NCBI GenBank assembly: GCA_003023695.1
Contig: PXYW01000032.1
Coordinates: 1 to 32,677 of the forward strand
Origin: Sulfobacillus benefaciens
GTDB lineage: Bacteria > Bacillota > Sulfobacillia > Sulfobacillales > Sulfobacillaceae
Direction of reading: 5' to 3'
Length of the DNA stretch: 32,677 bases
Shown here: one piece after another, positions 6,914 to 10,512 of the stretch
Layout of the letters: each line of letters starts with the position of its first letter
How positions within the stretch are numbered: the first letter of the stretch is position 1
Notes under the pieces: model-generated
Seen by the model: the letters and a program-made list of their open reading frames with translations, nothing else
Databases searched by the model: none
Told to the model about the DNA's origin: nothing
Translations under genes and position numbers: made by a program

Positions 6914-8260
6914 ATGTCCAAACGCATTGTGGTCATCGGTGGCGATGGGGCCGGGATGAGTGCGGCGTCTCAAGCCAAACGGCGCGACCCATCCCTCGAC
7001 ATTATCGCGTTTGAAAAAGGTGCGATCGTATCCTATTCGGCGTGAAGCGTTCCCTATTATGTCGGCAGGTTGGTCGACAACACCGAAGAACTGATTGCGC
7101 GCACACCCGAGGAGTTTCAAAGCCGCTTAGGGATTGCGGTCCGGACCCATCATGAAGTGGTCCAGATCGATCGTTCTCGACAGCGGGTGGCGGTGCAAGG
7201 GAATGGGGGCACCAGGTGGGAAAGTTACGATGAGCTGGTCATTGCGACCGGGTCTGTGCCCCTCGTGCCCGCATGGCCTGGGGTAGATTCGGACGGAATT
7301 TTTACGGTCAAAACGCTAGCGGATGGTCGCGCCATTCGCGACTACATCGAGCAGCAGCATCCCCGCCACGCCGTGGTGGTAGGCGCAGGCTATATCGGGT
7401 TAGAAATGGCGGAAAACCTCCGCCACTGGGGAATAGAGACCACCCTTCTAGAGCAAAATGGCCAGGTGATGCCCACCATGGACGCCGATATGGCGGAATT
7501 CGTCTGCGATGCCCTCGAAGGATTAGGGGTGCGGGTTCACCTTCAGGAAGAGGTGGTGGGCTTTGACGTGTACCGAGGGCGCGTCCAGGCGGTTCAGACG
7601 CGGCATGGCTCGGTGCCCGGAGACCTGGTCGTTTTGGGCCTGGGCGTTCGCCCACAAACTACACTGGCTCAAGAAGCCGGCATTCCTCTCGGCGTCAAAA
7701 ACGCGATTAGAGTGACCCCGTATCTTATGACGGAGGTACCGCACGTGTGGGCCGTGGGCGATGCGACACAAACCCTTCATCAAGTGACCGGATTGCCCAG
7801 TTACGTCGCCCTGGCCACGGTCGCCAATAAACAAGGGCGCATTGCCGGCATGAACCTCAGTGGCGCCTCGATCGCCTTTCCGGGGGTTTTGGGGACGGCC
7901 ATTACTCGGGTCGGCTCCACCGAGGTGGCGCGTACCGGACTCACATGGGCCGAGGCCTCGGCGGCCGGGATCCAGGCCATAGAAACTCGGATCCAAGCCG
8001 AAACGAAACTGGGATATTTTGAGGATGTGTCCCCGATGACCGTCAAGATCGTGGCCGAGATTGCCAGCGGCCGGATACTCGGAGGACAAATTGTGGGCGG
8101 CAGCGGTAGCGGAAAGCGGATTGATACCATTGCCACCGCCGTCAGCGCCAAAATGACGGCGACCCAAGTGGTCGACCTCGATCTCGCCTACGCACCGCCG
8201 TTTTCCGACGTCTGGGATCCGGTGCAAATTGCGGCAAGAACTCTGGTCTCCAAGATCTAG
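6914..8260 (+). CDS. Selenocysteine-containing CoA-disulfide reductase/NADH oxidase-like flavoprotein (UGA at codon 44)
   Basis: FAD- and NAD(P)H-dependent pyridine-nucleotide-disulfide oxidoreductase, 448 residues counting UGA as Sec. The ATG at 6914 follows GAGGAGGGA. The N-terminus has the FAD motif VVIGGDGAGMSAA. Codon 44 is UGA (7043-7045) in the context SYSA-UGA-SVPYYVG; CoA-disulfide reductases have the single catalytic Cys at this point (S. aureus CoADR: SFANCALPY, Cys43). NAD(P)-binding VVVGAGYIGLEMAENL is near residue 154, FAD-binding VWAVGDATQ follows, and the dimerisation domain ends YAPPFSDVWDP. There is no other stop or frameshift. A SECIS-like hairpin follows the UGA. A usual annotation would start at TTG 7070 and lose the FAD site and active residue. 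The alternative is a nonsense mutation or read error, but the neighbour has the same feature. The substrate may be CoA disulfide, persulfide or another low-molecular-weight disulfide. Confidence 0.85.
7060..7079 (+). promoter_or_regulatory. Candidate bacterial SECIS element of the CoADR-like gene
   Basis: Stem TGTCGGC (7060-7066) pairs with GTCGACA (7073-7079) over 7 bp including one G-U, capped by the hexaloop AGGTTG (7067-7072). The loop begins 21 nt after the UGA at 7043-7045 and has G in its second position. Bacterial SECIS elements are known to lie just downstream of the UGA, with a small apical loop about 16-37 nt away and G at loop position 1 or 2; the E. coli fdhF loop is AGGUCU. The fold was found by eye. 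Confidence 0.65.
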
Positions 8261-8335: not shown

Positions 8336-8395
8336 TGCGGCAGAGCGCCGGCCATTTGGGCAAACCGCTCCCGGAGCGAGAAAGAAGGAGAACCA

Positions 8396-9181
8396 ATGGA
8401 TAAAACTCCCCAGCTTCCCATTACCCCCATGGCACTGGATCTGTGGTATGAGGGACCGAGTTTTGTGGTCGCGGACAAACCGCCAGGGATGGCGGTTCAT
8501 CCCGACCGACCCGACGGGGAGGACACCTTGGTCAACGGATTGCTACAATCGAACCGTTGGCTGGCAGAAATGGAAACGAGCCATACTCCCGGTGTGATTC
8601 ACCGACTCATGGCACAAGACCGCGGGTTAGTCTTAGTCGCCAAGTCCGAGGACATGGCCGAGGCGCTACGCGGACTGTACCGCGAGCAAGCCATTACGTT
8701 TTCCTATCGTGTGCGGGTGTCTAAAGAGGTCAGGCCTGTAGCAACGGCACTGGTGACCGTCTTTGACCATCAAGTCTATGACGATCTTGCGGTGTGGGAT
8801 ATCGACAGCCCGCTCGGCGATACCGAGCAATTGCGGAATGAGTGGTTTGGGGAGGTCAACCCAGACGCGTATTTCGTGGCCTACCGGATGGACATTCCGG
8901 CGCCGCGCACGCACATTCAGGTGGGATTGGGCGAGCGTCTTGGGCTTCCCGCCATCGACCTCTACACCGTCCCGACGTGAAGCGTGTGCAATGGGACGAA
9001 GGCGTTGCTTTCGTCAAATGGTTTTGCCTATCGCGACCACACCCTAGACAACGACGTTACCATCGAGGAAATGCGTCGGCTGCGCGGGCACGAGCGGGGC
9101 ATTCCCGTGATTCTGATGAACGGTGTAGTCTCCGTGGGATTTGATCGACATCGATTAAAACACTCTCTGGGCCTGTATTAA
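8396..9181 (+). CDS. RluA-like domain fused to a selenocysteine glutaredoxin-like domain (UGA at codon 195, UxxC)
   Basis: Read through its single in-frame UGA (8978-8980), this is a 261-residue protein starting at the ATG at 8396 behind AGAAGGAGA. Residues about 15-190 resemble RluA/RluD pseudouridine synthases: VVADKPPGMAVHP, then VIHRLMAQDRGLVLVAK, then RTHIQVGL. The catalytic Asp of HRLDxxTSG is Met here, so synthase activity is unlikely. Residues about 188-261 are glutaredoxin-like: IDLYTVPT-U-SVC, NGTKALLSSNGFAYRDH, the cis-Pro loop GIPVILMNG, and VGFDRHRLKHSL. The UGA takes the place of the first Cys of CxxC, giving Sec195-Ser-Val-Cys198. A hairpin fitting SECIS follows. Ordinary calling would give two ORFs, 8396-8980 and 8984-9181. 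It is probably an operon partner of the CoADR-like gene, perhaps passing electrons to or from it; that is inference. Confidence 0.85.
8995..9015 (+). promoter_or_regulatory. Candidate bacterial SECIS element of the RluA-Grx fusion
   Basis: Stem GACGAAGGC (8995-9003) pairs with GCTTTCGTC (9007-9015) over 9 bp including one G-U, closed by the triloop GTT (9004-9006). The loop starts 23 nt after the UGA at 8978-8980 with G first and U second. Spacing and loop G fit the bacterial SECIS pattern and parallel the hairpin in the preceding gene. The fold was found by eye. Confidence 0.62.
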
Positions 9182-9635
9182 GCCTAGAGCACTATTCTTT
9201 AGCGCTTAGACATGCCACGCGTGAGCGCTACCGTATGGACGGCTTCGCCAAGACGCTTGGCGTTGCCATTGCGTGTGGCGTGTGCGATGCTTCTGAATGC
9301 GGTCTTTTAGCACGGGGACCAGATCGCAACTCTAGCCGTCGGAGGTGCCCAAAGGCTTAGCCACGCCTCCGCCGAGCGTCCGTTCGGTGACTTTGGCGGA
9401 AGACAGATGCCGCAAGTCCTTCGCGTTGACTGTTTTTGCGGGTAGGGTGACCTGCGGATCGTTCGCCGGAACTGCCAGCCACCAGCTGGTCTAACCCCCT
9501 AATTCTAGACAGATCGTTGATCGCTGGACCCGGAGCCTCTCGGGGCATGATATTGCGAGGCAAGGCCAAAAGGTTACAGGCCAAGCGTTCCAGCCTATCA
9601 TGCCCCGTTCTCCGCCTCCAGCGAGACCCTAGCTC
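9182..9635. other. Stretch without a supported gene
   Basis: About 450 bp between the fusion gene and a decayed transposase. A short plus-strand frame (about 9196-9360) reads ALRHATRERYRMDGFAKTLG and then loses coherence. It has no start or recognisable family and may be a relic. No terminator with a U-run was seen after 9181. Confidence 0.35.
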
Positions 9636-10512
9636 AGACCCGTCGTGGCTTCGTATTGTCCATGGGTGATAAGGGGCTTAATAGCAGCAGTCGGGTCGCT
9701 TCCCCATCCTTCCACAAATTCCGGATGTCGATGATGGGTTTAATCCAATAATCATCCCATAGGTTTTCGATCAATGCCGTGGCATCGTAGCCCCGATCGG
9801 CGCTCAACACACGGGCCGATTGCCACGCTAACGGATGTTTTTCGTGCAGTTGCCGCAGTAAGGTCGGCGCTTCCGTAATGTCGGCCGTGGAGGCCTTCGT
9901 GACCGTCCAAGCCACCGGCAACTCGTAGGTGGCATCGACGAGGAGATGGATCTTAATATCCAAACCAGGCGACGACCTTTTCCCACGCTTTTCCTTTCCT
10001 GCCAACGCCGCGGTAGGTCTTCTTGCCCCAGTCGGCGTCCGTGTCGCGACGCCCGTCTGGCGTCGTTTCGGCGGATCCGTGTTTCGCAAACGATGCCATC
10101 GCTTTACTATCAATCGCCAAGCGCTCGCCAAAGACGGGCAAGCACTGGGAGAGGGCCTCGATGATCTGATGAATCATCGCCTCGAGCACGTCTTGGTGTC
10201 GGAGCAGCTGCTGCAAAAAGCGGGTAAACGCCCAGGCGGAGGGTGCCCGTCCCCCCAACCCGACCAGCTCGCGCAACTGCCCGTTCCGGTGAAGTTCCCA
10301 CCGGAGACTCCCGATGGACCACCTTGGCGAGTATGGCGTTCCACATCGCGTGCACGGGATAATCATTGCGCCTGCGTCCGCGGGGGAGTGTCTAAAATCC
10401 GCATCAACGGTGCATCGGGAATGGTGTCGAGTACCCACTGGAGGCGCTCCAAATCGCCCAGCGGTTGAACCGCTTCCCAGGAAAACAACTGCATCTGTGG
10501 TATAATCGCCAT
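9636..10512 (-). pseudogene. Decayed DDE transposase (IS4/IS1182-like group)
   Basis: Minus-strand transposase broken by several frameshifts. The N-terminus begins at the ATG at 10512 (MAIIPQMQLFSWEAVQPLGD). Continuing pieces lie in other frames: NGQLRELVGLGGRAPSAWAF, then ERLAIDSKAMASFAKHG carrying the first catalytic-type Asp (IDSKA), then GRRDTDADWGKKTYRG, HLLVDATYELPVAWTVTKAS and VLSADRGYDA (second Asp). The frame ends after IDIRNLWKDGEATRL with an unrelated tail, so the C-terminus with the catalytic Glu region is missing or rewritten. It is not expected to be functional. It marks this side of the operon as a site of past insertion. Confidence 0.85.

Follow-up and report, generated by a model that had tools for sequence, protein, structure and literature searches.

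A predicted selenoprotein joining a degenerate pseudouridine-synthase domain to a glutaredoxin-like domain in Sulfobacillus benefaciens and its relatives

Introduction

In Sulfobacillus benefaciens (GCA_003023695.1), a gene on contig PXYW01000032.1 carries a UGA codon in its reading frame, and the question is whether this codon ends the protein or is read through, and as which amino acid. The stretch analyzed, called here the window, comprises 32,677 nucleotides (positions 1 to 32,677 of the contig, forward strand), and positions given without a locus or contig label refer to it. An earlier note, made from the letters alone, had proposed that positions 8396..9181 (+) encode one selenoprotein of 261 residues, in which an RluA-like domain is fused to a glutaredoxin-like domain with a UxxC motif. 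Selenocysteine (Sec) has a record in this genus: a passage of PMC4378227 reports putative Sec-containing formate dehydrogenases in every Sulfobacillus genome examined there, and PMC7409299 names a Sec peroxiredoxin from the proteome of a Sulfobacillus.

The fusion gene and its relatives

The frame opened by the ATG at 8396 follows a ribosome-binding-like AAGGAG (8385..8390, +) and runs through 261 codons to the TAA at 9179-9181. Rereading it confirmed a single TGA, at codon 195 (8978..8980, +), and Pfam matches confirmed that a glutaredoxin-like domain follows in the same frame. The N-terminal part, approximately residues 1-180 (8396..8935, +), is a degenerate pseudouridine-synthase domain of the RluA/RluD type, with PF00849 (PseudoU_synth_2, RNA pseudouridylate synthase) matching residues 23-110 at 37.2 bits (cut-off 26.8). 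The glutaredoxin-like domain with its U/CxxC motif occupies residues 186-261 (8951..9178, +), and PF00462 (Glutaredoxin) matches residues 189-244 at 32.3 bits (cut-off 22.9). In the model of this domain, strand 1 corresponds to residues 187-191 and the first helix to 196-207, with U/CxxC sitting between them. Since strand 1 precedes the UGA, a product started 3' of the codon would lack both this strand and the nucleophile, as the earlier note had argued.

Among the 62 relatives returned by the protein search are full-length CxxC fusions as well as shorter proteins, for the most part 170-220 residues long, whose end falls right before the codon in question. At the DNA level, we read 21 named loci, 23 order-wide loci, a second locus of the same genome (L091) and the window itself, which makes 46 sources and 28 distinct loci. 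The equivalent of codon 195 is TGA in 22 of the 28 and TGC in the other 6, and the glutaredoxin continues in frame beyond the codon in all of them. The six TGC relatives are uninterrupted fusions with 54-77% identity, and in alignments with relatives the UGA coincides with the first Cys of CSxC, exactly where it had been placed at first sight. Both forms that the earlier note had suggested looking for therefore exist, and the homologues are fused in a single frame, with either TGC or TGA and no conserved stop, not the pairs of separate genes that would have spoken against it. The identical TGA position recurs across many separately assembled genomes, which makes a read error unlikely. Beyond the UGA, dN/dS is approximately 0.17 against locus L027 and 0.16 against L028, and this segment of the fusion is under protein-level constraint.

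In the order of the window's species, the full-length fusion was found in 23 of 42 genomes at 26 loci, 20 of them with a single TGA (18 genomes) and 6 without TGA. The window's genome carries a second UGA copy (L091:7913-8701, corresponding to contig C104:57912-58700). The neighborhood of this copy is different and includes a CtaA-like gene, which lies upstream and on the opposite strand. Among Bacillaceae isolates, the cultured Terrihalobacillus insolitus 3ASR75-11 and Bacillus pinisoli GXH0341 carry the TGA form, together with selB, and Alkalihalobacillus deserti carries a Cys form; in B. pinisoli, a thioredoxin-family gene immediately precedes the UGA fusion (L047:7677-8789). The databases carry many family members cut at the UGA and, where they are named, it is as pseudouridine synthase or hypothetical protein.

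Hairpin downstream of the UGA

A passage of PMC1088965 describes the bacterial selenocysteine insertion sequence (SECIS) as a stem-loop that lies just 3' of the UGA and has G in its small apical loop. In the window, a SECIS-like hairpin of this kind occupies 8995..9015 (+), with a 9-bp stem (8995-9003/9007-9015) and the loop GUU (9004-9006). The stem length and loop reported in the earlier note hold, while its distance of 23 nt from the UGA to the stem does not: the stem starts after 14 nt and it is the loop that lies at 23 nt. Only 1 in 1000 synonymous recodings of the segment equals the strength of this hairpin. When each locus was compared with 1000 synonymous recodings, the hairpin at this distance was exceptional in 21 of 22 UGA forms and in none of the 6 Cys forms. 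In the 20 UGA forms in register, all 140 cells of the inner 7 pairs hold a standard pair. Two of the pairs are changed on both sides, and both the covariation score and the percentage paired were reached by 0 of 500 shuffles; pairing amounts to 59.3% in the Cys forms versus 87.8%. At one locus (L040), a perfect 7-bp stem lies one base off the codon register, which speaks for conservation of the RNA rather than of the peptide. The hairpin at 8995-9015 also scores as terminator-like owing to a T-rich stretch 3' of it.

Some observations on the hairpin weigh against its role as a SECIS. The folding energy of the 45-nt segment in the window gives a z of only -1.85, with 11 of 200 dinucleotide shuffles folding as well. 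Pair changes on both sides (reached by 195 of 500 shuffles) and further pair types (494 of 500) are unremarkable, because the stem is so conserved. The six Cys forms have a covariation score of 0.193, though 89 of 500 shuffles reach this value, and one UGA form (L078) has a weaker stem, shifted by one base and with one mismatch.

Selenium machinery

The genes selA, selB and selD are present in the genome, with 551, 358 and 355 bits respectively, each above its cut-off. In-frame UGA codons are also found in the SelD gene, at what we take to be the active-site position, and in a stand-alone glutaredoxin gene, again at the active-site position. Across the order, selB occurs in 38 of 42 genomes. 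The four without it (one of them 63% complete) also lack the fusion, all 23 fusion genomes carry selB, and 15 genomes have selB without the fusion. Strong tRNA-Sec matches (at least 59.9 bits) were found in 19 of the 23 fusion genomes; none above the cut-off was found in G000 (the window's genome), G003 and G010, and a match of 52.6 bits in G022 was not counted.

The tRNA genes that were not found weigh against the Sec reading: no tRNA-Sec above the cut-off was found in the window's assembly, where 150 of 362 first-look candidates were scored in one search, nor in G003, which has a UGA fusion, nor in G010, which has a Cys fusion. A pattern search for selC gave one match, which we judged to be due to chance. 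The congener G004 has a tRNA-SeC with anticodon TCA at L090:6095-6190. Since its left flank matches contig C4 of the window's genome up to the contig end, approximately 190 bp short of the tRNA gene, we infer that selC of the window's genome lies in an assembly gap. This placement is firm on its left side only. On the other side, the flank has just weak matches close to the end of contig C48, comprising 72 nt at 82% and an ORF match of 60 residues at 55%; this ORF may belong to a mobile element, and the argument is built on one congener. Read by eye, an ORF at the C48 end facing the expected selC (L102) resembles a small helix-turn-helix mobile-element protein, so that selC may be an integration site.

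UGA 195 is very likely read as selenocysteine, because the relatives carry either UGA, nearly always with the matching hairpin, or a Cys codon without it. The earlier proposal of one 261-residue selenoprotein is supported by the single-frame TGC and TGA relatives, the hairpin restricted to UGA forms, and the presence of selA, selB and selD.

Evolution of the Sec and Cys forms

A tree of the 28 fusions with the trait codon masked requires 3 changes between Sec and Cys. We also built a tree of 68 rows from the region 5' of the codon only (80 rows before removal of duplicates), without two truncated rows that end otherwise and without P0003, P0048, P0051 and P0059-P0063. Taking the state of 21 protein rows from their truncation at the codon and not from DNA, the best tree has 9 switches, with 8-9 over the bootstraps and 4 forced by well-supported branches. 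The three UGA members of the window's clade are placed among Cys relatives. A single clade of the five nearest Cys rows is not rejected by the approximately unbiased (AU) test (p 0.24), and a single clade of all six is rejected (p 5e-5). Sec in this clade may thus have been either kept or regained.

The RluA-like domain

The designation "RluA-like" of the earlier note is right for the fold and not for the catalytic Asp. The pseudouridine-synthase fold is kept, aligning with RluD over 177 residues, and the solved RluA-RNA complex 2i82 is among the matches. Across 55 aligned rows, Lys28, His69 and Tyr104 hardly vary and Asp75, which is new, does not vary at all; the motifs NRWLAxME and DxG are invariant as well. 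The alignments put Met72 (8609..8611, +) in the column of the catalytic Asp of RluA/RluD (HRLM for HRLD), a column that contains D in 1 of the 55 rows and mostly R or A. The protein scores 45 bits with TIGR00005 (cut-off 192.7). A separate RluD with HRLD is kept in the same genome, and the profile alignment of the fusion to it looks unreliable beyond approximately residue 150. Read by eye, the Asp column of 7 Bacillaceae proteins shows D in two (P0067 and P0069, the latter being L046), and E, E, H, N and S in the others, which counts against a general loss of catalysis; since the column varies in this way, the loss is argued from non-conservation.

Neighboring genes

A gene missed by the earlier note lies 135 bp upstream of the fusion (6914..8260, +). 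Its sequence, matches to Pyr_redox_2 and TIGR03385, and its relatives indicate a flavoprotein of 448 aa similar to CoA-disulfide reductase (CoADR), with one in-frame UGA at codon 44 (7043..7045, +), a position at which TGC is found in Cys-form relatives. In a plain list of ORFs, the gene appears only as a protein of 396 aa starting at 7070. TIGR03385 matches residues 4-441 over the full profile at 427 bits, below the cut-off of 578.8. An order-wide search gave 11 rows with exactly one TGA and, among the 12 loci read, window included, codon 44, which is the redox Cys position, is TGA in 9 and TGC in 3. After the UGA there is a SECIS-like hairpin with a 7-bp stem and the 6-nt loop AGGUUG (7060..7079, +), and the GUCGGC...GUCGAC hairpin occurs in 9 of 9 UGA forms, the window's among them, and 0 of 3 Cys forms. 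The CoADR-like gene is likely a second selenoprotein, as judged from these codons and hairpins. The 10-mer CGTGAAGCGT spans both UGA codons (7041-7050 and 8976-8985) and occurs in the window at these two sites only.

Where the CoADR-like gene adjoins the fusion, at 7 of 28 loci, the Sec/Cys state agrees in all 7 pairs (3 with UGA in both genes, 4 with Cys in both). Several points weigh against this second gene and its pairing with the fusion. Its hairpin is weaker than that of the fusion: among 9 UGA forms, 4 are stronger than 95% of synonymous recodings, the window stands at 5.2%, and the folding energy of the window's segment has a z of 0.00. In two of the three Cys forms there is another stem, which is stronger and closer to the codon. 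In one of the both-Cys pairs (L029) the CoADR gene is in pieces, and the three UGA/UGA loci belong to one clade and are not three independent events. The neighbor was not found at the remaining 21 of 28 loci, which makes an electron route through CoADR weak. Outside the 28 loci, the genome G030 has a broken fusion copy beside pieces of CoADR. A database protein of 330 aa (P0051) has the C-terminal half of CoADR running into the RluA-like part with no stop between them; it is possibly a natural triple fusion or the product of a lost stop.

A conserved operon partner was also sought in the 28 loci, with flanks of up to 8.6 kb, several being shorter, and, apart from CoADR at 7 of them, no general same-strand neighbor was found. 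Cytochrome-oxidase genes (convergent downstream, 9 loci) and a CtaA-like gene (upstream, 5 loci), 13 of 28 loci together, were discarded as functional partners: they are on the other strand, so that the association is one of shared gene order and not of function. These gene families were checked in L033 and L041 only. Directly 3' of the fusion, a small same-strand ORF (105-134 aa) is present in 7 of 28 loci; the one tested (L033:8883-9200) has no Pfam match. On the minus strand of the window, 3' of the fusion, pieces resembling a broken transposase are found at 9634-10438, from reading of the translation only.

Discussion

Altogether, we think it probable that the fusion is a redox enzyme with Sec195 in a UxxC motif, that its RluA-like part is a non-catalytic scaffold for binding a partner, and that in this lineage its electrons may be fed through CoADR. 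SelB and Sec-tRNA would insert Sec at codon 195 on meeting the hairpin at 8995-9015. Sec195 and Cys198 would then act on a partner held by the RluA-like part and reduce a disulfide or mixed disulfide there; the RluA-like part is predicted to serve as a scaffold for binding and not to work as a pseudouridine synthase. In the lineage of the window, the electrons may come from NAD(P)H via the neighboring, likely Sec-containing CoADR homologue, or from the CoA thiol pool that CoADR keeps reduced.

The alternative that survives best is that the scaffold is an RNA-binding module and that Sec195 acts on RNA or RNA-bound proteins instead of the CoA thiol pool. RluA-family folds bind rRNA and tRNA, the fold is kept here with an RluA-RNA complex among its matches, and the CoADR neighbor was not found at most loci; on the other hand, the invariant NRWLAxME resembles no RNA motif known to us, and we regard this alternative as unlikely. 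A more specific form of it, to which we give the same small chance, is a selenoenzyme working on RNA, whose inert pseudouridine-synthase cleft would grip rRNA or tRNA and bring Sec195 to an oxidised or thio/seleno-modified base or to an RNA-bound protein. If this is true, an RNA-modifying scaffold would carry a repair arm based on selenium, which in the window's lineage would be fed by the second selenoprotein of the gene pair.

Less probable still is that the RluA-like part remains a working RNA enzyme that the glutaredoxin merely tunes by redox. The alignment with RluD and the nearly invariant Lys28, His69 and Tyr104, together with the invariant Asp75, would fit such an enzyme, but the catalytic Asp is nearly always absent, a separate RluD with HRLD exists in the same genome, and the TIGR00005 score stays far below its cut-off.

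We reject the two readings without Sec, each of which we hold to be very improbable. That the UGA is an ordinary stop, giving a short RluA-like protein followed by a decayed or separately started glutaredoxin, agrees with the many database proteins of approximately 170-220 aa ending right before the codon, such as the B. pinisoli entry of 173 aa named pseudouridine synthase, but not with the uninterrupted TGC relatives, the dN/dS beyond the UGA, the incomplete fold of a separate product, or a hairpin limited to UGA forms. Reading through the UGA by a changed code or a suppressor tRNA, or a TGC misread as TGA, would suit the TGC found at codon 195 in 6 of 28 loci and the tRNA-Sec not found in the assembly, but TGA terminates 6 of the 18 window genes judged clear, the same TGA is seen in many separately assembled genomes, selA, selB and selD are present, and only the UGA forms keep the SECIS-like hairpin.

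Compared with known systems, the closest in the glutaredoxin part are UXX-star and other Sec glutaredoxins (NF041212, NF041211, NF041114; PF00462), which are likewise small thioredoxin-fold domains whose first active-site position is taken by Sec. Taken alone, the glutaredoxin part of the fusion passes the PF00462 cut-off and scores 44.1 bits with NF041212 (cut-off 66). The fusion differs from them in its RluA-like carrier and its UxxC motif, and falls below the cut-off of each UXX-star model listed. HUGP/GUXX-star (NF045501) likewise has a Sec glutaredoxin-like domain behind an N-terminal domain, but is entered with 2 in what is presumably a Sec-count column in the part of PMC13188914 that lists it; the fusion scores 26-30 bits with NF045501 (cut-off 325), through its glutaredoxin part only. 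Unlike the RluA/RluD synthases (PF00849, TIGR00005), the fusion lacks the catalytic Asp and has the invariant NRWLAxME and DxG instead. A Sec form of CoA-disulfide reductase (TIGR03385) is already listed as a predicted selenoprotein in the review PMC13188914. The neighbor gene shares with it the UGA at the redox Cys position and differs in its score below the family cut-off and in adjoining a second UGA gene.

Fusions of Sec domains with other domains are also described, in a section of PMC2398784, among thioredoxin-fold selenoproteins of the Global Ocean Sampling, for example a homologue of PP2C-type phosphatases joined to a peroxiredoxin; the main text of that article, to which this statement is limited, does not contain the word pseudouridine. 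None of the NCBIfam models listed (June 2026) reaches its cut-off for the fusion. The titles and abstract openings searched included no publication on such a fusion, which does not by itself show its absence from print. Sec glutaredoxins and Sec domain fusions are already known (PMC13188914, PMC2398784). What appears to be new is that the carrier is a degenerate pseudouridine synthase and that the gene forms a matched Sec pair with CoADR.

On the sequence evidence, the architecture of the fusion is real and conserved, and very likely that of a selenoprotein. The fusion would add to the known selenoproteins a family that occurs in 23 of 42 genomes in the order of the window's species (18 carry a UGA form) and in two Bacillaceae isolates, and it would link the redox chemistry of selenium to an RNA-modifying fold that has degenerated. 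With 9 switches between Sec and Cys, the family is a good test bed for the gain and loss of Sec as an RNA hairpin comes and goes.
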